A stretch of 64,000 bases of DNA from positions 782,391 to 846,390 of the forward strand of contig NC_016645.1 of the NCBI RefSeq assembly GCF_000234805.1, in the 5' to 3' direction. This DNA is from Pyrobaculum ferrireducens. Its GTDB lineage: Archaea; Thermoproteota; Thermoprotei; Thermoproteales; Thermoproteaceae. Shown here one piece after another: positions 11,617 to 56,763 of the stretch. Position 1 is the first letter of the stretch. The number at the start of each line of letters is the position of its first letter. The position numbers and the translations under genes are program-made. The notes below the pieces were generated by a model. It saw only the letters and a list, made by a program, of their open reading frames with translations. It had not been told where the DNA came from and did no database searches.

Positions 11617-12381
11617 CTAGCCGCAGTCCCTCGGCTCCACCCTAACCGCGCCCAGGCCCATCCCCCGGCCAGTCCCCACGTTAAAAACCTCAGCCACCCG
11701 AAGAGCCCGCCACACGTCCTCCAGCCTCCTCCTCCCGAAGACGCGGTAGACGGCCCAACCCGTGAATCCCCTAGCCACCCCGCCCCCCAGGAGGCTCACA
11801 GTCCTGACGCACCTACCGAAGCATCCGAAGTCAGCCAGCCCAACGTAGGTGTAGACCCAGCGGAGGAAAGGCGCGCCGAGGTCCAAGACGCCGAGGGCCC
11901 GGCCGTGCCTAACGGCAGACTTAAACACGTTTAGAGGCCTCGGCGTGAAGTCAAACAGCGCCCTCCTCCGCCTATACAGCGGCTTCACCGCGAACCTCAC
12001 CGGCGAGAGAAACTCCAGCCGGAAGCAGGAAGCCCCCGGGAGGGGGTCCACAGACACGTCGCGGAACTCCACCTCCTCCACAGCGACGCGGGAGTTGAAT
12101 ATGCGGAAGCCCCCGGCGACGCCGTCCACGAAGGCCTCGGCCAGCCCCCTCTGGGCAAATCCCACACGGAACTCCACCAGCTCCCCGGCCGGCAACGCCG
12201 CGGCGTCCAGCACCGGCCTCCCCCCGGCGAAGAGGGGAGACACCGCGAAGGGCTTCGGCCTCGCGTCGTGGAGATCACCCCTCCCCAAGACCGAGAGGAC
12301 GATGGCCTGCACCAGCGTCCCCGAGAAGCCGGACACCGCCGCGCCCTCCCCCAGCCTGCCCCGCACCCACACCCGCCACAC
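11617..12381 (-). CDS. cas6: Cas6 CRISPR endoribonuclease, copy 1
   Basis: Cas6 cleaves the repeat of pre-crRNA. The C-terminal half is the second ferredoxin-like fold: FTGWAVYRVFGRRRLEDVW, then VAEVFNVGTGRGMGLGAVRV with the Gly-rich loop that defines the family. FSGTLVQAIVLSVLG near the N-terminus matches the first fold. The frame is open to an ATG at 12411. A TATA-like element (minus-strand CTTTTAATA near 12400-12408) favours the GTG at 12381, giving MWRVWVRGRL, the usual Cas6 beginning. It is divergent from array 1 and sits at that array's leader end. A second Cas6 at 57.1 kb accompanies the other repeat family. Confidence 0.85.
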   Translation of the reverse strand: MWRVWVRGRLGEGAAVSGFSGTLVQAIVLSVLGRGDLHDARPKPFAVSPLFAGGRPVLDAAALPAGELVEFRVGFAQRGLAEAFVDGVAGGFRIFNSRVAVEEVEFRDVSVDPLPGASCFRLEFLSPVRFAVKPLYRRRRALFDFTPRPLNVFKSAVRHGRALGVLDLGAPFLRWVYTYVGLADFGCFGRCVRTVSLLGGGVARGFTGWAVYRVFGRRRLEDVWRALRVAEVFNVGTGRGMGLGAVRVEPRDCG

Positions 12382-12411
12382 ACAGAAGAAAACACCCCCT
12401 ATTAAAAGCAT

Positions 12412-12697
12412 TTAAAAAACGTCGTGCAGAAAGCCCTTTGCATATGTCAATATTTCAACTCCCCTCGGCGGATAGACAAATGTACGTGGGGGATCCAGTT
12501 TATAAAACGTCGTGCAGACCCACAGCGAACGGCGCCGCCGAGCTGTTGCCACACGACATTCAACTACCAGAAGCCGCTAGGCACGCTGACACAATGTAGA
12601 AAGACAACAAAACACAAGCAACAACAACACAGCAATCACTCCAATACTACACAAGAAAAACTTAAAAACCCACAAAAAACCATGACCAGGAACCCCA
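12412..12697 (+). promoter_or_regulatory. Leader of CRISPR array 1
   Basis: This 286-bp stretch between cas6 and the first repeat has the place and composition of a leader; the last 110 bp are A-rich and lack long GC runs. TATA-like TTATAAAA at 12500-12507 and ACTTAAAAACC at 12659-12669 could start pre-crRNA. The 15-mer AAAACGTCGTGCAGA occurs at 12416-12430 and again at 12504-12518, both times next to an A/T box. The array reads left to right because repeats end ATTGAAAG, the usual 3' end in crenarchaea. Confidence 0.6.
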
Positions 12698-15600
12698 GTA
12701 TCTCAAAAAGAGGATTGAAAGCTGCGGCGCGCCGTAAAGCGCTACGTGGGTCGTCTAGTTGCGCGGTATCTCAAAAAGAGGATTGAAAGCTGGGATTAGG
12801 AGCCTGTGCATGTGTATAACGCGCTCGGGGAGAGTATCTCAAAAAGAGGATTGAAAGCTTCTTCGGCGCGGCGCTGTTGCTGAGGGCTTTGTTCTCGAAG
12901 GTATCTCAAAAAGAGGATTGAAAGCATCACCCAGGACCTGTGGATCGGCCACGAGGTCGACTTGAAGTATCTCAAAAAGAGGATTGAAAGCCTCGACTGG
13001 AACGGTCTCCCCCGCGAGCCACCTCTTTGTATCTCAAAAAGAGGATTGAAAGGACGTGTTTATGCCCGTGGATTTATTGCGTATGGGCTTCAGTATCTCA
13101 AAAAGAGGATTGAAAGCTTTGATGTGTTGCGCGCTCATTTCGTCGTCGGCGGGAGCAGGCCGGTATCTCAAAAAGAGGATTGAAAGCGAGTCGCTCCGCG
13201 AGCTGGCGCTCCTGGCTCCTCAGTTGCTGTATCTCAAAAAGAGGATTGAAAGCACCTCGTCGACATCTTTACCGAGCCACTCCTTCTCGTATTGGTATCT
13301 CAAAAAGAGGATTGAAAGATGATGGAGCTAGAGGACTTCCTCGTGTTGTCTTTGGCGGTATCTCAAAAAGAGGATTGAAAGATGATGGAGCTAGAGGACT
13401 TCCTCGTGTTGTCTTTGGCGGTATCTCAAAAAGAGGATTGAAAGCTTCTCCTCCTCGACCTCCTCCTCTTCCGATTCTCTCTCCGTATCTCAAAAAGAGG
13501 ATTGAAAGGGAGGCCGTGGCGAGCTTCTTCGGCTTCGAGGCGCCCAGGGGTATCTCAAAAAGAGGATTGAAAGTCGCTCTGCTGGCATACGGCTTCTACG
13601 TCTACTACCAGACGCTGTATCTCAAAAAGAGGATTGAAAGACTAGACCTCCCGAGGGACCACGTCATCGACGACATTTTACTCGTATCTCAAAAAGAGGA
13701 TTGAAAGATGTATGATACTGCAGATAGACTACACGGCGATTATCGAGCTAGTATCTCAAAAAGAGGATTGAAAGCGTTGAAACTGATCGTGATCACTGGC
13801 TCCCACGTCCTCCGCGAGTATCTCAAAAAGAGGATTGAAAGTCTACGTCCAGGGGCTTGACGGCCCTCCGGCCCGTGCAGTATCTCAAAAAGAGGATTGA
13901 AAGCCCCATGGGCACGAGCGCCGTGTAGAGCTGCGGCCCAATCCGCCGCGGTATCTCAAAAAGAGGATTGAAAGATACCAATACAACACGCTAACCATCG
14001 TCCCAGACACCTCAATCTACGTATCTCAAAAAGAGGATTGAAAGTCACCACGCGGCCGCACTGCCGCGCCCTTAAAAACACGTATCTCAAAAAGAGGATT
14101 GAAAGCGTGCGTATTGTCTTGCTACTTATGTCGAAGTCTCTCGAAACGAGTATCTCAAAAAGAGGATGGAAAGCTATACTCCTCTGGAAAAGTGCCGCCT
14201 TCTGTTGCGAGAAGTATGTATCTCAAAAAGAGGATTGAAAGCGGTTATGGCGACTCTCCACGGGGTCTTGAGGAGCATGATAATGTATCTCAAAAAGAGG
14301 ATTGAAAGGTACTACAGCCTCTGGTCCACCGGGAGGTTGCAACTGGTATCTCAAAAAGAGGATTAAAAGCTCTACTTCTTTCTCCACCCCAGTCTCCATA
14401 GCGTATACCTGTGTATCTCAAAAAGAGGATTGAAAGAATACCGAGCCAAAACGGATTGGGCCGCAGCTCTACACGTATCTCAAAAAGAGGATTGAAAGCT
14501 TGACACCGAGCTTCTGAAGCCACTCCCGCACCCTCTGTATCTCAAAAAGAGGATTGAAAGACATCACTATCAAGACCGGCGCCGTGCTGAACTACGACGA
14601 GTTTGAGTATCTCAAAAAGAGGATTGAAAGTTACTCCTCAGCTCCTTGATGAAGGGAACGGCGTGCCCCGCGGTATCTCAAAAAGAGGATTGAAAGACCG
14701 AGAGGCTGAGGCAGGTGACCCTGCGGGACGTGGAGGATGCGGTATCTCAAAAAGAGGATTGAAAGTAAGTATACTCATTGCTTCTTCATGCCTTGTCTTA
14801 CCTGTGTATCTCAAAAAGAGGATTGAAAGTACTGCTCGGTCTCTGCGACTATTCTGTCGTCGTACTCAACGGTATCTCAAAAAGAGGATTGAAAGTACGT
14901 ACGCCCACGCGCTCACAGTCAACTTCACCTCGCTCAAGCTGTATCTCAAAAAGAGGATTGAAAGAGCCTCTCGAGAGCCTTCTGCCTGTCGACTGTCAGC
15001 ACTGTATCTCAAAAAGAGGATTGAAAGGGTGGTGTATCAAGACGCGTGACGCAGGCCTGTCGCCGTATGATCCGGTATCTCAAAAAGAGGATTGAAAGAC
15101 CACGGCGGACTCCACGAGACCTCGCGCATGCTCTGGAGTATCTCAAAAAGAGGATTGAAAGCTGCGTCCGCGACTTCAGCTTGGCCTCCAGCACGGCGTG
15201 TATCTCAAAAAGAGGATTGAAAGGCGGATAAGGCTCAGAGCCCCCAAGCGCCTCCCGCGGTCTCCGCAGTATCTCAAAAAGAGGATTGAAAGCACTGCCC
15301 GAGTTGCCAGGCACAGCCGGCTTGTCGGTCCTCACATAGTATCTCAAAAAGAGGATTGAAAGGCCACCTCGGCATGCGCCTACACGGGCCGAGGATCGTG
15401 CTTGTCTGTATCTCAAAAAGAGGATTGAAAGGCGGTGCGATCCCACCTCACGGCCACCAGCTCGCTGTCGCCGTATCTCAAAAAGAGGATTGAAAGCGTG
15501 TACGTGTGGCCACACCCGGTCAGGTCAGAGCTGATAGAGGCGTATCTCAAAAAGAGGATTGAAAGGCGCAGTCTGTAGGCCGGCAGAAACGTGTCGGTGT

Positions 15601-16432
15601 TGTAGGTATCTCAAAAAGAGGATTGAAAGTCTCCAGCTCTTCCCTCGACACCTGTTCGTACGCGCTCCTGTAGTATCTCAAAAAGAGGATTGAAAGATTT
15701 CGGCCATAGCCTACCTACCGGGTAGCATACGTGCGTGTATCTCAAAAAGAGGATTGAAAGTGTAGTAGCGTTCGGCGATCATGTGAGTAAGCACAGCTGT
15801 GTATATAAGTGTATCTCAAAAAGAGGATTGAAAGTTCAACAGTCCGGTGGAGTTCATGCTTGTGAGGATGTATGGTATCTCAAAAAGAGGATTGAAAGCC
15901 CTCGCCAGCGGCGGCGCCAGCCGCTGGCGCACAGCAGATTGTATCTCAAAAAGAGGATTGAAAGGTGATAAAGATGGCTAGTAGCACCACCGCGAAAAAT
16001 GGCAAGTATCTCAAAAAGAGGATTGAAAGACGCTTTTGTTTACACGACGTTGATCGGCGGGGTGTGTGAGTATCTCAAAAAGAGGATTGAAAGACCATTG
16101 GGTCAAGGACGGTGTCGCCAGGCTTTGTATACATTGTATCTCAAAAAGAGGATTGAAAGGTCTTCTACGCCTATCAGCCACGCCCCCACGACGTCTTCGC
16201 TGTATCTCAAAAAGAGGATTGAAAGCGATGTGTCTGTCTGCGGTTGTCAGCAGATTCCTAACCGTGTACAGTATCTCAAAAAGAGGATTGAAAGAGGCCA
16301 GGTATCGCGAGAGCGATCTTGAGATCATCAGAGACACGTGTATCTCAAAAAGAGGATTGAAAGGCGACGGATGTCGGCTACTACTTCAGCACAGACGTGT
16401 GGCTGTACGTATCTCAAAAAGAGGATTGAAAG
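12698..16432 (+). CRISPR. CRISPR array 1: 57 repeats of 24 nt, 56 spacers
   Basis: The 24-nt unit (first copy 12698-12721) begins GTATCTCAA and ends GGATTGAAAG. I counted 57 copies, the last at 16409-16432, with spacers mostly 37-47 nt. Two copies carry a substitution (14150-14173, GATGG; 14346-14369, GATTAAAAG). The spacers at 13319-13357 and 13382-13420 are identical, a duplicated repeat-spacer unit. The leader side is the left end. This repeat goes with cas6 copy 1 and the type I-A genes that follow. Long open frames through the array are translations of the repeat and not genes. Confidence 0.98.
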
Positions 16433-16610
16433 CTCTACCCGTAGGATGATATGCGACGCACGCTACTACTCCAGCCTCTCACAACAGAGGCACGGCGGCG
16501 AGCTCTACGAGTTGCTCCTGGAGCATCGTTGACTAGAAGCTGAGATCAAATGGTTCAGAAGGTACGAAATATCAGCAGAAAGATAGATATTAAAAATGGT
16601 TAGTACTAAT
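16433..16610. other. Trailer region of array 1, possible coding remnant
   Basis: After the last repeat an ATG frame at 16446 reads RYYSSLSQQRHGGELYELLL, stops at a TGA, and continues in frame as LEAEIKWFRRYEISAER. It could be debris of a captured gene. A T-run follows at 16612-16618 near the end of the oppositely oriented winged-helix gene. No intact gene is supported. Confidence 0.3.
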
Positions 16611-16901
16611 CTACTTTTTTGCCTTTATCCTCTCTCTGATTTTTGCACGGTCAAACAGCTTCATGACGTCGTCGACGGCCTCGAGGAGCTCTACGCCGCG
16701 CCTAGTCAGCCGCCAGTAGCCGGCGTCAAACTCAACCAGCTTCAGCTCCCACAAATATCTAAGTTCCGCGTCGTACCCCAGCTTAGAGACGTGGTACAGC
16801 AGGTCACCCTCAGCCAGCTCACCGCCATACGCAAACAACACCGCCAGCACCGCGACGTCAGCCACAGTAATGCGGCTAGCCAAATCTTTCACATCTATCA
16901 T
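16611..16901 (-). CDS. Small winged-helix protein, second gene of a regulator pair
   Basis: This 96-residue protein shows a winged-helix pattern: VADVAVLAVLFAYGGELAEG, DLLYHVSKLGYDAELRYLWE, and YWRLTRRGVELLEAV as wing and last helix. The basic tail is RAKIRERIKAKK. Its ATG overlaps the end of the upstream gene by 4 nt (ATGA), so the two are translationally coupled. The place, between array 1 and the adaptation genes, suggests control of this CRISPR locus; that is inference. Confidence 0.6.
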   Translation of the reverse strand: MIDVKDLASRITVADVAVLAVLFAYGGELAEGDLLYHVSKLGYDAELRYLWELKLVEFDAGYWRLTRRGVELLEAVDDVMKLFDRAKIRERIKAKK

Positions 16902-17173
16902 ATCACCTCCTCGACGAATCGAAGCACCTCCTCTCCCCGCGCCGTTATCTTATACACGCCGTTGACCTGGTCAACAAGGTCCCTGCTTATCAGAGTCTTC
17001 AGCCTAGACGCGAGGCCGTGGCTAATCTTAAAACCGTACACGTCGTGAAGTACCTCGATAATCTCGGAATACCTACGCGGCTTCTCCTTCAATATCTTCA
17101 ATATTACTATATTCAACACGTCAAGCTTCACGACGAGGCTGTGCACGTCATAACTTTCAGTGACCTCTCTCAT
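16898..17173 (-). CDS. Winged-helix transcription regulator, first gene of the pair
   Basis: This 91-residue protein is almost only a winged helix: NIVILKILKEKPRRYSEIIE, GFKISHGLASRLKTLISRDL, and a wing VNGVYKITARGEEVLRFVEE. This resembles PadR/MarR-type archaeal regulators. The start codon lies inside an inverted repeat (17171-17192), which suggests autoregulation. It is co-transcribed with the second winged-helix gene. Confidence 0.65.
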   Translation of the reverse strand: MREVTESYDVHSLVVKLDVLNIVILKILKEKPRRYSEIIEVLHDVYGFKISHGLASRLKTLISRDLVDQVNGVYKITARGEEVLRFVEEVI

Positions 17174-17192
17174 GAATCCAGATTCATGAATC
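17171..17192. promoter_or_regulatory. Operator-like palindromes at the start of the winged-helix pair
   Basis: CATGAATC-CA-GATTCATG (17171-17188) is a perfect inverted repeat that begins with the complement of the ATG of the first gene. It overlaps GATTCATGAATC (17181-17192), itself a perfect 12-bp palindrome. A third half-site, ATCATGAATC, lies upstream at 17264-17273. Binding here would cover the start of a leaderless message. Confidence 0.5.
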
Positions 17193-17324
17193 AGTTATAA
17201 GCATATCTGTCAAACAATACCACTCACCAGAGGTAAACTTAATAAATGTGTCATAGCTCACTAATCATGAATCAAAACTAAAACAAAACGCTACAAATAC
17301 CTACTTCTCTCAACCAACACAATA

Positions 17325-17348
17325 GTATCTCAAAAAGAGGGTCGAAAG
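17325..17348 (+). repeat. Solitary, slightly degenerate array-1 repeat next to cas4
   Basis: One 24-nt copy of the array-1 repeat lies 5 nt beyond the cas4 stop and about 900 bp from the array end. It differs at two positions (GGGTCG in place of GGATTG). It has the same orientation as the array. Thus it lies antisense within the 3' untranslated part of the minus-strand cas4-cas2-cas1-csa1 message. Confidence 0.85.
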
Positions 17349-17353
17349 CTTGT

Positions 17354-17929
17354 TTAGATTTTTTCTATTTGTGTGGATGTGTATCCGCAGTATTTTCTGT
17401 ACCAGCAGCTGGGGCATTTGTTTGGGTGGTGTCTTGGCTGGGGGGTCCAGCCGCTGTATATGCGGCGTATCTGGGCGGCTACGTGGTTTACTAGCTGTAT
17501 GAGGTTTTGGGTGAGTGGGATTGTGGCTGTGTGGCCGGTTTCTGTGTAGTAGATGTAGGCTGTGGTGGCGGCTCTGCGGTACTGGGCCTGGGCGGCGATG
17601 GCGTAGGCGGCGGCCTGTGCTTTGTGGGGGGTTGGGACTGTGCGTGGGGGTTTGGCTAGCTTTACTTCGAGGGGGGCTGGGCGGCCGCCTATCCACAGCA
17701 CGGCGTCGACGACGCCGCATATGCCGGCGCCTTCTAGGCGTGGGCTGTGTTCGACGCGGTCGGCGCCGAGGGCCTTGGCGACTGCCTCGACGGCCTCGCG
17801 CTGGGTTTCCTTTCCCTTCTTCATCCTCTCGGTGGGGGGCTCGGCCGCTCCTGTTATGATGTAGTAGGCGGCGGCTGGGCAGTAGAGGTACTGCCTGATG
17901 AGGGCTGGGTTAATGCAGAGCTGGGCCAC
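17354..17929 (-). CDS. cas4: Cas4 nuclease
   Basis: Cas4 is a RecB-type nuclease with an Fe-S cluster that trims and orients prespacers before integration. This one has 191 residues. The N-terminal Cys of the cluster is in QYLYCPAAAYY, and the C-terminal trio is in CPSCWYRKYC. The PD-(D/E)XK core is GVVDAVLW (Asp) and APLEVKLAKPP (ExK), followed by a Q motif at KAQAAAYA. Its start overlaps the cas2 end by 20 nt, so it is the last gene of the adaptation operon. Confidence 0.92.
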   Translation of the reverse strand: MAQLCINPALIRQYLYCPAAAYYIITGAAEPPTERMKKGKETQREAVEAVAKALGADRVEHSPRLEGAGICGVVDAVLWIGGRPAPLEVKLAKPPRTVPTPHKAQAAAYAIAAQAQYRRAATTAYIYYTETGHTATIPLTQNLIQLVNHVAAQIRRIYSGWTPQPRHHPNKCPSCWYRKYCGYTSTQIEKI

Positions 17930-18185
17930 GGCCGCTGGGTGGGGGTGGGCCTATTCTTATCATTGTTTCCAGCGTCCTTCTGTCTATTTTGAGGATTATT
18001 ATGTCTGCGTTGGCGCCTCTGACGGCTCTGGCGAGCCTCTCGGCGAGCTCCTTGACGTAGGCAGGGGGGAGGCGGCCTATGTAGGCTGACTTCTGGACGC
18101 GGGCTAGGCCGTATGACCTCAGCACCTCCGCCACCTTGTTTCTCACGTGGTCTTCGGTTATGTCGTATACCACTAGGATGTGCAT
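17910..18185 (-). CDS. cas2: Cas2, CRISPR adaptation protein
   Basis: This 91-residue ferredoxin-like protein begins HILVVYDITEDHVRNKVAEV, with the conserved Asp at the end of strand 1. It continues SYGLARVQKSAYIGRL, the second typical strand. Cas2 bridges two Cas1 dimers in the integration complex. It overlaps cas1 by 13 nt upstream and cas4 by 20 nt downstream. Confidence 0.95.
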   Translation of the reverse strand: MHILVVYDITEDHVRNKVAEVLRSYGLARVQKSAYIGRLPPAYVKELAERLARAVRGANADIIILKIDRRTLETMIRIGPPPPSGRGPALH

Positions 18186-19060
18186 AGGGACTTCGCCAGG
18201 TGCCTTGCTTCTCTGTGTATCTCTGCTGATACTGGGCTTCTCCCGGCGCCGAGTTCCTCAAGCACCGCGGCGGCTACGGCGAGGCGGGATTTGTGGGTGA
18301 GGAGGCCGTCTTCTACCTCAAGCTCTTCGGCGGATTTGGCCACCGCGGCGTCGACGCGGGGCCTCCACTGCTCCATGAAGTCTAGGACTAGGGAGGGCCT
18401 TCCTGACTTGTCCGCGTGTAGGAAGCCTACGTAGGGGTCTAGGCCGGAGAGGAGTAGGGATTTGAAGCAGAGGGTTTTTAATATGCCGTAGCCGTAGTTG
18501 AGGCCGGCGTTTACGGGGTCTCGGCCGTCCTGGTCGCGGCCTGGGAAGCCGGTTACCTCTCTGTAGGCGGCCCAGTAGGCCTCCGCGGCCGCGGCCTCGG
18601 CCTCCATCAGAGCCCTGGCGTCGGGGGCGCGGGCCGCCGCGTCGGCGGCCTTGCTGATCTGCTCGGCGTATTGGCTGTACCGGGCCAGCCTCCTCCGCCA
18701 CGTGCGTACGTTCTCCAGCTGGCCTCTTATCTTCCTCCAGATCCACCTCCTGGCGAACTCAAGCCCTCTGCCGTCTGCGGTTGCTTTGTACTGGCAGAGC
18801 CTCTTGGCCCCGGTGGCGTCGCCTACGGGCTTCATAAATATGCCGATGGGCTCCCCCCTCTGGTCGAACACGGCGACGGTGGCGCCGGCCCTCAGCAACG
18901 CCCTTAGGGCCTTCGTGGAGATGGATATCCCGCCGGTGAGCAACAGCACCTCGTCTACTTCGTGGAGGGGGTATTCCCTCCTGGCGCCGGGGCTCTCGAC
19001 GACGAGCAGGCCCCGCCTGGCTCTTATCCGGGTTCCGTAGCTAGCGACTGCGATCTGCAT
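18173..19060 (-). CDS. cas1: Cas1, spacer integrase
   Basis: Cas1 integrates new spacers at the leader end of the array. This one has 295 residues. The N-terminal beta domain (RGLLVVESPG, then VLLLTGGISISTKALRALL) is followed by the helical domain. Expected metal ligands are visible: Glu in AEAYWAAYREVTG, His in YVGFLHADKSGRPSLVLDF and Asp in the same stretch. It overlaps cas2 by 13 nt and csa1 by 20 nt, a tight operon csa1-cas1-cas2-cas4. Confidence 0.95.
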   Translation of the reverse strand: MQIAVASYGTRIRARRGLLVVESPGARREYPLHEVDEVLLLTGGISISTKALRALLRAGATVAVFDQRGEPIGIFMKPVGDATGAKRLCQYKATADGRGLEFARRWIWRKIRGQLENVRTWRRRLARYSQYAEQISKAADAAARAPDARALMEAEAAAAEAYWAAYREVTGFPGRDQDGRDPVNAGLNYGYGILKTLCFKSLLLSGLDPYVGFLHADKSGRPSLVLDFMEQWRPRVDAAVAKSAEELEVEDGLLTHKSRLAVAAAVLEELGAGRSPVSAEIHREARHLAKSLCTS

Positions 19061-19889
19061 GGCATATGTGGAAGTATGGGCACGTCCGGGGGCACTCCGG
19101 CGCGGCGCCGGGGTCGCGTCCGGAGGCTACTATGTCTATGGCCTCGTCTCTCGCCTCGAGGAACTTGGCCCGGGCGGCGTCGCCGAGGGGGTGCGCCACG
19201 GCTCGGTACTCCACTGCGGCGTTGACGGATATCTGGACGTGTATGCCGTAGTCTATGGGCACGCCCCACTCCGCCTCTATGGCCATGGCGTATCCCGCCA
19301 GTGCGGCCTCTACATTTTGCGAGGGGCCGAACTTGAACTCCACCACGGCTCCGAGGGCGACGCCGTCTGCCACCACGTATCCGAGGCCGAGGGGTGCCCC
19401 GTCGACGACGACCTGGGTGGCTATTGGGGCGGCGTAGAAGGCGGCGGCGTCGCGGCCGCGGGCTAGCCTGGCGGCGTGGGCGTAGCTGTGCTCGCCGAGT
19501 AGTCTAGAGGCGACGTATTTGTACAGCGCCTCTGCCTTCGGCCTCACGTCTTCGGGTACGCCCTCTAGGGAGGGGGACATGGGCGCCCCGGCGTAGGCGT
19601 ATTTCTTGAAGTCCTCCACGGCCTTGAACAGCGCGGCGTGCAACGCCTGGCCCTCGGCGAGGGTTTTGTTTGCGGCGGGCCTCTCGCCCGCGACGTATTT
19701 GAGGTAGAGGTTGCGACCTGTGGGGCAGTAGCCGTAGGCGAAGTCTGAGAGGGCTAGCCCGAGGTAGGCGGGGGGCTTGACGGGCGGCCTGTCGTAGGCC
19801 CAGCCCCGTAGGTCGGGGGATACCTCGACGGGTCCCGTGGTTATCCTGGCTCTTTTTAGGAGTCTGGCGATTTCGAGTAGGGTTAACAC
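19041..19889 (-). CDS. csa1: Csa1, Cas4-like protein of type I-A adaptation
   Basis: This 282-residue protein belongs to the Csa1 branch of RecB-like nucleases. Features are LSDFAYGYCPTGRNLYLKYV near residue 50 with one cluster Cys, the core segments VVADGVALGAVVEFKFGPSQ, and a C-terminal cluster CPRTCPYFHICHAD. It is the first gene of the operon, divergent from csa3 across 78 bp. In type I-A systems Csa1 acts with Cas1, Cas2 and Cas4 in spacer acquisition. Confidence 0.9.
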   Translation of the reverse strand: MLTLLEIARLLKRARITTGPVEVSPDLRGWAYDRPPVKPPAYLGLALSDFAYGYCPTGRNLYLKYVAGERPAANKTLAEGQALHAALFKAVEDFKKYAYAGAPMSPSLEGVPEDVRPKAEALYKYVASRLLGEHSYAHAARLARGRDAAAFYAAPIATQVVVDGAPLGLGYVVADGVALGAVVEFKFGPSQNVEAALAGYAMAIEAEWGVPIDYGIHVQISVNAAVEYRAVAHPLGDAARAKFLEARDEAIDIVASGRDPGAAPECPRTCPYFHICHADRSR

Positions 19890-51998: not shown

Positions 51999-52964
51999 GT
52001 GGGCCTTACTCCCGAGGAGAGGCGGAGGTTTTTGAGGGCTCTTGAGGAGGATGAGGAGTTTAGGCTGGCTGTGGCTGGGGCTGTCGGGCTTGGGGAGGTG
52101 CTGAGAGAGCTTAGAGACCTCCGCAGAGACTCCGAGAGAAGGTGGAGGCGCTGGTACAAAACCTGGAAAAAATTCCAAGAGGAAAACGAAAAGAGGTGGC
52201 AGAGATGGTACGAAACATGGCGCAAGTTCCAGGAGGAAAACGAGAAGAGGTGGCTAGAGAACGAGAGGCGGTGGCGAGACTGGTATGAGACGTGGCGGAA
52301 GTTCCAAGAAGAGAATGAAAAAAGGTGGCAAGAAAACGAGAAGAAGTGGAGGGAGTGGTACGAGACTTGGAGAAAATTCCTAGAGGAGAACGAAGAGAGG
52401 TGGCGTGAGAACGAGAGGAGGTGGAAGGAGAATGAGGAGAGGTGGGAGGAGAATAGGAAGTTGTGGCGGGAGTGGTTTGAGACGTGGCGGAGGTTCTTAG
52501 AGGATTACGAGAGGAGGTGGCGGGTTAATGAGGAGAGGTGGGAGAGGGCGTTTAGGGAGTTTAAGTGGATTAGGTCGGCCATTGAGCAACTGCAGGAGGC
52601 GCTGGGGGTGTCGCTGGAGTTCTACACCGCCCAGTGGATTAGGGAGTGGCTCTCCGCCAGGGGGTACCACTGCAGGCCCACGGTGCACGCCTCCCTCCTC
52701 ATCGACGGGGTTAAGGAGGTGGACGTCTTCTGCCCGGACCCGCCCGTCGTGGCGGAGGTCAAGGCCGCGGTGCCCACCGTGAAGGCCGCCGAGGAGGCCC
52801 TGGCCCAGCTGAAGGCGGCGGTGGAGGCCGCCGAGAGGTTCCTAGGGAGGAGGATATACGCCGCGTTCCTCGCCGTCGAGTCCGCGCCGGGGGATGTGGC
52901 GGAGTACCTGCGCCGCCGCGCCGAGGAGGCTGGCTACATCCTCATCTTGGGACGGAGCCATTGA
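51999..52964 (+). CDS. Tryptophan-rich coiled-coil protein with C-terminal nuclease-like domain (DUF3782-like)
   Basis: This 321-residue protein starts at GTG 51999 below TTTATAAAC. The first 45 residues (EERRRFLRALEEDEEFRLAV) match the start of the gene at 10.8 kb. Residues 50-190 are a highly charged helical repeat in which units like RWYETWRKFQEENEKRW recur with Trp at fixed spacing. The C-terminal 110 residues carry DVFCPDPPVVAEVKAAV, a PD-(D/E)XK-like D...ExK pair. The extended Trp repeat is unusual. Function unknown. Confidence 0.65.
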   Translation: MGLTPEERRRFLRALEEDEEFRLAVAGAVGLGEVLRELRDLRRDSERRWRRWYKTWKKFQEENEKRWQRWYETWRKFQEENEKRWLENERRWRDWYETWRKFQEENEKRWQENEKKWREWYETWRKFLEENEERWRENERRWKENEERWEENRKLWREWFETWRRFLEDYERRWRVNEERWERAFREFKWIRSAIEQLQEALGVSLEFYTAQWIREWLSARGYHCRPTVHASLLIDGVKEVDVFCPDPPVVAEVKAAVPTVKAAEEALAQLKAAVEAAERFLGRRIYAAFLAVESAPGDVAEYLRRRAEEAGYILILGRSH

Positions 52965-54772: not shown

Positions 54773-55143
54773 CAGAGCCACCACGTCCCAGACATGAGAA
54801 CCGCATAAGGACAAGTGGAGCCCCGCCTCTCCGCCCGCCACGGCTAGAAGGCCGCTAACAGACGCAACAAGCCTCGCCTACGCAAACCCCGACGCGGCGG
54901 CGCCACAACACACCAAGATTTACTACAAAATCGGCTACGACGTGGGCAAAATAACCCTCGCCACAGACCGCAGACACAGCGACAGACACATAGCACACGC
55001 CGCCAACCCCCTCCGCCAGGCAAAGCTCCCGCAGTCAACCACCAGCCCCCTCAACATTAAAGAGGCCGTTCATCCAAATTTCAATTCCTTCAAAGCATCA
55101 TCGCCGACGTTGTCCCAGCGACATCCTCAAACACAGTAGTTAC
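54773..55143 (+). other. No intact gene; coding remnant
   Basis: A start-less plus-strand frame from about 54840 reads PLTDATSLAYANPDAA, then TKIYYKIGYDVGKITLATDR and HIAHAANPLRQAKLP, ending before the array at 55139. The pattern is protein-like but the frame has no start and its end is improbable. I read it as a decayed gene next to the trailer end of array 2. Confidence 0.35.
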
Positions 55144-56763
55144 GTTTCAATATCTTTTATAATCTTTTATAAGTTCTTCAAGAGGGGCGGCGGCTTACCC
55201 ACAACGTCCTCTGTCATAAGCGTATTTCAATTCTTTTGTAGGTTCTTCAGCGAAATTAAGCGGCTATGGAATATCGAGATTTTGCGGGAGTTTCAATTCT
55301 TTTGTAGGTTCTTCCATGTTTTGGAGGGAGGAGGCGGAGGACGTCACTGTGATTTTGTTTCAATTCTTTTGTAGGTTCTTCCGAGGCCATCTACCACCTC
55401 GACAGGGAGTACAGCGGCTGGGTGTTTCAATTCTTTTGTAGGTTCTTCGCTACTAACGATTTGAAAGTCAGTGTGAAAAACGCTATTAGGTTTCAATTCT
55501 TTTGTAGGTTCTTCTGGATCAGGTTGTGGGCTGACGGAGGCTGGGAAGTTGTCGAGTTTCAATTCTTTTGTAGGTTCTTCGGGACCTGCCTGCGGCCTTT
55601 CACAACGGCCTCTATCAGTTTCAATTCTTTTGTAGGTTCTTCGACCAGGCGACGTGGCCTTGGTGGTCAGGTTGAGGACAAGGCCCAGGTTTCAATTCTT
55701 TTGTAGGTTCTTCGCGCTCGCAATCATGGAGGAGGCAGCGTCAGTAGAGGTTAGGTTTCAATTCTTTTGTAGGTTCTTCTTCGGAGACCTTCGCCCAGGC
55801 CCTCGCCTACTGGATCCAGTTTCAATTCTTTTGTAGGTTCTTCTTCGGAGACCTTCGCCCAGGCCCTCGCCTACTGGATCCAGTTTCAATTCTTTTGTAG
55901 GTTCTTCGAGGCTCAATATCCGCGGCTCTGATATGAGCTATGTTATGAATGTGGTTTCAATTCTTTTGTAGGTTCTTCTGAACCGTATGGGCATCTATAC
56001 GCTGTGCGTAAGTCGTAGTTTCAATTCTTTTGTAGGTTCTTCAAGAAGATTATCTACTGCGCAGAGCATGAACGTGAAAAAGAGTTTCAATTCTTTTGTA
56101 GGTTCTTCTGTTATGGACATGGCAATAAGGGTTAAAGAAGTCGGCGAGTTTCAATTCTTTTGTAGGTTCTTCACAGGCTGACAAGCGTACACAGAGGCAG
56201 GAGAAAAGAGCCGAGTTTCAATTCTTTTGTAGGTTCTTCCAGACAAGTCGACAGCATCAAGACCGTCGTCGAGATAGTAGGTTTCAATTCTTTTGTAGGT
56301 TCTTCGTTGGGTGATATTCCTGGGTGGCACGTGGTGCGTATCACTCAGTTTCAATTCTTTTGTAGGTTCTTCAGGCTATGGGGAGGGCGCTAGCCCTGCT
56401 GATAGCCACACTCGCGGTTTCAATTCTTTTGTAGGTTCTTCCTAGCGTTATTCTCTCACCTTTTAGATACGATCCGAAATGTTTCAATTCTTTTGTAGGT
56501 TCTTCTATGTAAAGTTTCTTCTGGATACTTTTCATAACGTAAAACCAAGTTTCAATTCTTTTGTAGGTTCTTCGGCGGGCAGTGCCGGCGGCCAGGCCGT
56601 TATAATAAGGTTTCAATTCTTTTGTAGGTTCTTCATATTCGCCGCGGCGTGGTCCTCCGTGTCGAGGATAAACTTTGTTTCAATTCTTTTGTAGGTTCTT
56701 CCGTGCCGAGGTTCAACGCACCGTCGGCGCTGGGCAACGTTTCAATTCTTTTGTAGGTTCTTC
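55144..56763 (-). CRISPR. CRISPR array 2: 24 repeats of 25 nt plus one degenerate distal repeat
   Basis: On the plus strand the unit begins GTTTCAATTC and ends GTAGGTTCTTC, so crRNA reads from the minus strand, where repeats end GAATTGAAAC. Copies run from 55224-55248 (first base changed) to 56739-56763. A degenerate, expanded copy lies at 55144-55179. The leader side is the right end. Spacers are about 37-43 nt. The spacers at 55780-55818 and 55844-55882 are identical. This repeat differs from array 1 and recurs at the right window edge. Confidence 0.97.

Follow-up and report, generated by a model that had tools for sequence, protein, structure and literature searches.

The single CRISPR repeat beside cas4 at positions 17325-17348 of the window (the whole 64,000-nt stretch of Pyrobaculum ferrireducens DNA analysed in this work) is very probably the terminal, leader-distal repeat of a type I-A array that has been stranded by virus-like DNA, is drifting, and performs no dedicated role. 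The earlier note on this DNA was right in its observation of the repeat, and its modest reading of an old array end is supported. The new part is the reason why the repeat stands alone.

In the proposed history, the adaptation operon and a type I-A array would have faced each other tail to tail, with the terminal repeat of the array beside cas4. A piece of a virus-like element would then have lodged between the last regular repeat and the terminal repeat in the common ancestor with the relative G003. The terminal repeat, now 892 nt off and adjoining cas4, would have been drifting since. The literature search combining 'Pyrobaculum ferrireducens' and CRISPR returned no report.

The lone repeat and array 1

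The sequence of 17325-17348 (+ strand) is GTATCTCAAAAAGAGGGTCGAAAG. It is identical to the array-1 consensus at 22 of 24 positions (changes A17G and T19C). Both the CTC/GAG palindrome and its A5 core persist, which counts against a drifting relic. No chance match with three or fewer mismatches to the array-1 repeat was obtained in 100 shuffles of the window. At the same threshold, the genome contains 58 copies on one strand only, which are the 57 copies of array 1 and 17325-17348. The cas4 stop codon (17354-17356, minus strand) is located 5 nt from the repeat, and the repeat is antisense to cas4. The match of 22 bases, the distance of 5 nt, and the antisense placement that had been noted earlier are confirmed by the alignment and the shuffles.

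Array 1 (12698..16432, + strand), identified by repeat search, consists of 57 regular repeats that belong to a type I-A repeat family. The last regular repeat (16409..16432, + strand) forms the left border of the 892-nt gap. The promoter-like element AAAAACTTAAAAA at 12656..12668 (+ strand) exactly matches the CRISPR promoter published for the whole genus, which is reported to precede 37 Pyrobaculum arrays (Bernick et al., 2012; PMC3396285). Since this element marks the leader of array 1 at the opposite end, the lone repeat is leader-distal. The gene of Cas6 (11617-12411, Pfam) is located on the leader side of array 1. The genes cas4 (17354..17929, PF01930), cas2 (17910..18185), cas1 (18173..19060), and csa1, or cas4' (19041..19889), are located on the minus strand beyond the lone repeat, and Pfam bears out the families Cas4, Cas2, Cas1, and Csa1 that had been assigned to them from the sequence.

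The lone repeat shares the family and orientation of array 1. Because it has the same orientation and lies 892 nt behind the last regular repeat, it marks where an oversized gap in that array ends and is not an independent element. The description of the repeat as lone thus holds for its being the only copy outside array 1 in the genome, but it is alone only nominally. A terminal repeat usually, though not by strict definition, follows the repeat before it at a distance of one spacer. The distance here is 892 nt compared to 35-57 nt because an element-derived block intervenes, hence the word 'stranded'.

The array end beside cas4 in relatives

The cas4 end was searched against 61 genomes and matches were identified in 11 of them, own genome included. 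Nine relatives were compared; G011, with a match of 35 nt, was left out. All nine relatives have cas4. In eight of the nine, including G003, the end of cas4 is faced by an array with this orientation (G012 is the exception), and published Pyrobaculum type I arrays are likewise described as running tail to tail with cas4 (PMC3396285). The array of Pyrobaculum sp. WP30 (G008) is unbroken up to a repeat beside cas4, which is the place of the lone repeat in the window. The tail-to-tail arrangement of array and adaptation operon, together with the intact array end of WP30, therefore identifies 17325-17348 as the terminal repeat of the array.

The last repeat of WP30 is located 46 nt from the cas4 stop and 10 nt from the ancestral stop (determined by hand), because its cas4 has an in-frame stop. 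That stop falls directly before the last conserved cysteine (L050 15654). The distance between the last recognised repeat and the cas4 stop is 5 nt in G003, which has a stranded repeat of its own, 60 nt in P. oguniense TE7 (G002), 63 nt in P. aerophilum (G006), 83 nt in the Bin S10 MAG (G005), 117 nt in P. calidifontis (G010), 139 nt in P. neutrophilum (G009), and 211 nt in G016. The names given to G006, G010, and G009 follow from agreement of their arrays with published coordinates (PMC3396285).

Terminal repeats, degenerate or regular, were assessed in 12 zones with 1000 shuffles each. Clear terminal repeats were identified in the window, G003, and WP30 (0/1000 shuffles as good in each). Degenerate repeats in the interval from the array to cas4 were also identified in P. 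calidifontis (2/1000), P. neutrophilum (1/1000), and G016 (10/1000). The degenerate repeat of P. calidifontis falls exactly at the published crispr4 end, 1185256 (PMC3396285; coordinates converted by hand). No clear extra degenerate repeat was identified in these zones of P. oguniense (75/1000), P. aerophilum (803/1000), the Bin S10 MAG (562/1000), and G012 (624/1000). A degenerate repeat near cas4 is therefore not universal, given the results for P. aerophilum, P. oguniense, and the Bin S10 MAG. The reading of the repeat as a simple remnant of the array end agrees with WP30, G003, and the degenerate repeats near cas4 in relatives, and degenerate terminal repeats are reported to be ordinary in CRISPR arrays (PMC4466440).

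A candidate second degenerate repeat directly behind array 1 (16477-16490) was rejected with 96/1000 shuffles as good. No clear degenerate repeat was identified directly behind the regular array of G003 either (80/1000). The first copy in the row of the second array of the window (55142-55179) is strongly degenerate and is likely the terminal repeat of that array.

The block between array 1 and the lone repeat

The block that separates array 1 from the lone repeat spans 16433-17324 (892 nt). A total of 498 ordinary repeat-to-repeat gaps of 35-57 nt were identified in the window and ten stretches from relatives. Only three longer gaps below 3 kb were identified, which measure 892 nt in the window, 791 nt at the corresponding position in G003, and 2339 nt between two separate arrays of P. 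calidifontis. The block aligns with that of G003 from directly after the last regular repeat, with approximately 100 nt missing in G003. Array 1 and the G003 array have no spacer in common. A DNA search with the initial 188 bases of the block matched only the window genome and G003 among the 61 genomes, and the block as DNA has no match in phages or plasmids. When target-site duplications were sought at the block ends, no convincing pair emerged other than the two bordering CRISPR repeats.

A broken piece of a gene similar to Pogu_ECE001 (16433..16576, right end approximate, + strand) opens the block at the repeat edge; it was identified by protein and DNA matches and is interrupted by an in-frame TGA. 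It is followed by two overlapping minus-strand ORFs (16611-17173), H2 and H1. H2 (16611..16901) encodes 96 aa with no Pfam match. H1 (16898..17173) encodes 91 aa and is winged-helix-like (HTH_45, E 5.4e-5, below the cut-off of Pfam). The A/T-rich stretch upstream of H1 (17174..17324, no strand) contains TCATGAATC-type repeats, and the approximately 100 nt absent from G003 belong to it. Three TCATGAATC-type sites are located around the H1 promoter region (17170-17274), one of them within the stretch that G003 lacks; they are possible operators.

H1 is 96% identical in G003 and has five weak matches elsewhere (seven of the 61 genomes in all, own included). H2 is 93% identical in G003 and has one weak match elsewhere (three of the 61 genomes). 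Homologues of H1 and H2 were not identified in phage records, IMG/VR, or PDB sequences, and PHROGs yielded weak regulator-like matches for H1 only. Both ORFs are intact in the window and G003 and exhibit purifying selection, with pN/pS of 0.19 for H1 (Fisher p 0.011) and 0.11 for H2 (1.7e-8). The block as a whole is therefore not dead, since mere decay would not exhibit such selection. H1 and H2 are probably winged-helix regulators of mobile-element origin, and possibly regulators that have been retained between the array and cas4. The intact pair was either kept by the host, or exchanged between the two loci or reacquired by them. H2 has a high synonymous divergence relative to cas4, a hint that parts of the locus have had different histories.

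Origin of the block

The block resembles the second replicon of P. oguniense TE7, a 16,887-bp extrachromosomal element (CP003317.1) that carries an integrase gene and a gene for a putative major capsid protein. Published work places it among the double jelly-roll viruses, in the STIV group (PMC5894146). Over 28 codons at the start of the block, the identity to a stretch of one protein of this replicon is 82%. The whole Pogu_ECE001 protein as query matches 48 residues at 65% identity (E 5.3e-14), with the in-frame TGA in the window, and the same match in G003 contains two stops. The first 128 bases of the block have 80 bases identical to the element DNA at element position 972, compared to a maximum of 62 in 300 shuffles. 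We conclude with high confidence from these matches that the left part of the block is of element origin.

Behind ECE001, the element has two small + strand genes that are absent in the window, then two tandem minus-strand ORFs as in the window. H2 is the counterpart of Pogu_ECE004 by gene order, with a weak match to the element ORF (E 0.054). H1 is the counterpart of Pogu_ECE005, with a modest match (28%, E 6.4e-5). From the gene order and the weak similarity, we infer a shared source for both parts of the block, with the ORF pair on the right arriving on the element that supplied the left part. Mobile-element DNA is thus located between two repeats of one array, as expected of virus integration, with the left part alone strongly matched. 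Only the ECE001 fragment was identified when other parts of the element were searched in the window genome, and nothing was identified for the capsid gene. Neither ECE001-like nor capsid-like genes were identified in IMG/VR, and ECE001-like genes were not identified in phages; among plasmids, they were identified only in the P. oguniense element itself.

Array 1 also contains two ordinary spacers that match this element. The third spacer (12858..12900, + strand) matches the Pogu_ECE029 region at 31 of 40 positions with CCT upstream. Another spacer (13641..13683, + strand) matches the putative major capsid gene at 30 of 40 positions with TCA upstream. The best score among 40 shuffled sets of 120 spacers is 27, and none of the 40 sets reaches the score of 31/40.

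Route of entry

Three routes fit the block, and we do not decide between them: integration of the element into the array, recombination of a spacer with its target, and capture of an oversized spacer. At its left border, the block starts no more than a few bases from the edge of the repeat. In the P. oguniense element, CCC directly precedes the aligned stretch, although the flank of the element that entered may differ. CCN is the PAM of type I-A systems. The block could be a giant spacer, or else a virus-like element that recombined with a spacer derived from it and so became trapped in this archaeal array of type I-A. The left end of the block follows CCC in the P. oguniense element, a CCN like the CCT at another protospacer. 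We regard that reading, in which the host would also have retained a viral regulator pair, as rather unlikely.

Prophages reportedly integrate into the CRISPR loci of S. pyogenes (Varble, 2021), and a spacer is said to recombine with its target in staphylococci (Varble, 2019). To our knowledge, recombination between virus and array has so far been known from streptococci and staphylococci. Our literature search found no case of a virus inside an archaeal CRISPR array, which is not proof of absence.

Role of the lone repeat

The lone repeat and the G003 copy differ at 6 of 24 positions, and no change is common to both copies. Across the same pair, cas4 differs at 10 of 576 positions, and pS is 0.10 for H1, 0.30 for H2, and 0.036 for cas4. 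The difference of 6/24 is within the range of the surrounding synonymous change and therefore no constraint is visible, though this is a weak test of two genomes and 24 bases. The suggestion that the repeat diverges faster than its neighbours was dropped: 6/24 exceeds the value of cas4, but the pS of H2 is 0.30. We infer that the lone repeat probably has no dedicated role.

The alternative with the most to be said for it is that the repeat acts as a terminator, where the antisense T5 ends csa1-cas1-cas2-cas4 transcription and shields the regulator genes and the array. It is compatible with a relic, and we consider it possible but doubtful. The A5 core (17332..17336) is T5 on the cas4 strand (minus) and begins 18 nt beyond the cas4 stop, as it does in G003; in P. 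oguniense, a T5 begins 7 nt beyond the stop. A5 is spared by all six differences between the window and G003 copies. Small RNAs of four Pyrobaculum species are reported to include less than 1% reverse-strand reads among 15,417 CRISPR reads (PMC3396285). Because these antisense reads end at poly-T in the repeats, the authors proposed the repeat poly-A as a reverse-strand terminator (PMC3396285), the same role as here. With T5 18 nt after the cas4 stop, most cas messages would therefore be expected to end inside the repeat, and T5 may terminate the message there. Comparative support is thin, however, because a T-run of at least 4 within 250 nt after cas4 is absent in five of ten genomes (161 nt available in G005). 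The terminal repeat of WP30 also lacks A5, A5 occurs in that place in 386 of 2000 composition shuffles, and the chance of six changes sparing A5 is about 0.2 by arithmetic. Help in ending the cas message would be a plausible side effect of the stranded terminal repeat, and most cas mRNA would then carry a partial anti-repeat at most.

The other regulatory readings are far less probable. A virus-borne solitary repeat of the Racr type, which would have arrived with the virus-like DNA, is very unlikely. The repeat does border element-derived DNA, but the P. oguniense element (one related element only) has no site resembling any of five repeat types with seven or fewer mismatches, and in WP30, which lacks the insert, the corresponding position is occupied by an array-end repeat. 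Slightly less likely still is a CreR-like mini-crRNA, in which the repeat and its downstream sequence on the + strand would guide an effector to a cas promoter. The repeat has the crRNA orientation and adjoins cas genes, and the best PAM-less match of the post-repeat sequence, in the csa1/csa3 intergenic region, is equalled by only 8 of 200 shuffles. Twelve tests were made, however, so one result at 8/200 is not surprising. No target flanked by the CCN PAM beats the shuffles in any of the six cas-side regions of the window (at least 105/200 as good in each), the downstream sequence is the coding end of cas4, and the 5' handle is changed from ATTGAAAG to GTCGAAAG. The least likely reading is an antisense sponge, where read-through cas mRNA would pair with pre-crRNA or Cas6 and feed back on adaptation. 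The complementarity follows from the sequence, but the changes in the window and G003 copies are not shared, and reverse-strand reads of the arrays are as rare as stated above in the four relatives (PMC3396285). The pairing with pre-crRNA, Cas6 decoy, and effector feedback offered in the earlier note are thus left without support by the divergence of 6/24, the lack of a PAM-flanked target in the six regions, and the scarcity of reverse reads.

Comparison with known systems

The stranded terminal repeat is similar to the degenerate terminal repeat of Streptococcus agalactiae CRISPR1 (PMC4466440), which is likewise last in its array, diverged from the consensus, and marks the array end; here, 892 nt and not one spacer precede it. 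The repeat family, promoter element, and gene order are those of the published Pyrobaculum type I arrays, whereas splitting by mobile-element DNA is not described in the available text of that report (PMC3396285). The single repeat is also similar to Racr and other solitary repeat units (PMC10651486) in being outside regular spacing, but such a repeat is absent from the one related element, and here it is in the orientation of the host array and at its end. CreR, an autoregulatory crRNA-like RNA (PMC12737573), likewise involves a single repeat near cas genes, whereas the six window regions offer no PAM-flanked target in a cas promoter. The prophages of S. pyogenes are reportedly also mobile-element DNA bordered by CRISPR repeats (Varble, 2021), but here the insert is a fragment, the array is archaeal and of type I-A, and no attachment site is shown.

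A candidate regulatory element is thereby removed and replaced by the history of an array. A Pyrobaculum array with ordinary spacers against a virus-like element also has, wedged between two repeats, a fragment of an element of this kind. How virus-like DNA came between two CRISPR repeats is a better question than regulation by the repeat. If the piece entered by spacer acquisition or spacer recombination, it would be an archaeal case of recombination between virus and array. In that case, the conserved H1/H2 pair would be a candidate virus-derived regulator retained at a CRISPR locus.

Other features of the window

A T6 on the array strand at 17359-17364 is derived from the last cas4 codons, GAA AAA ATC, and is found at the same place in six of ten genomes. 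It could be the end of pre-crRNA transcription. It is not claimed as a conserved signal because 4 of 31 cas4 codon triples are conserved equally. Each of the two array families has one exact duplicate of a repeat-spacer unit (13295-13420 and 55755-55882). Four diverged direct copies with a spacing of mostly 75 nt are located at 52159-52541.
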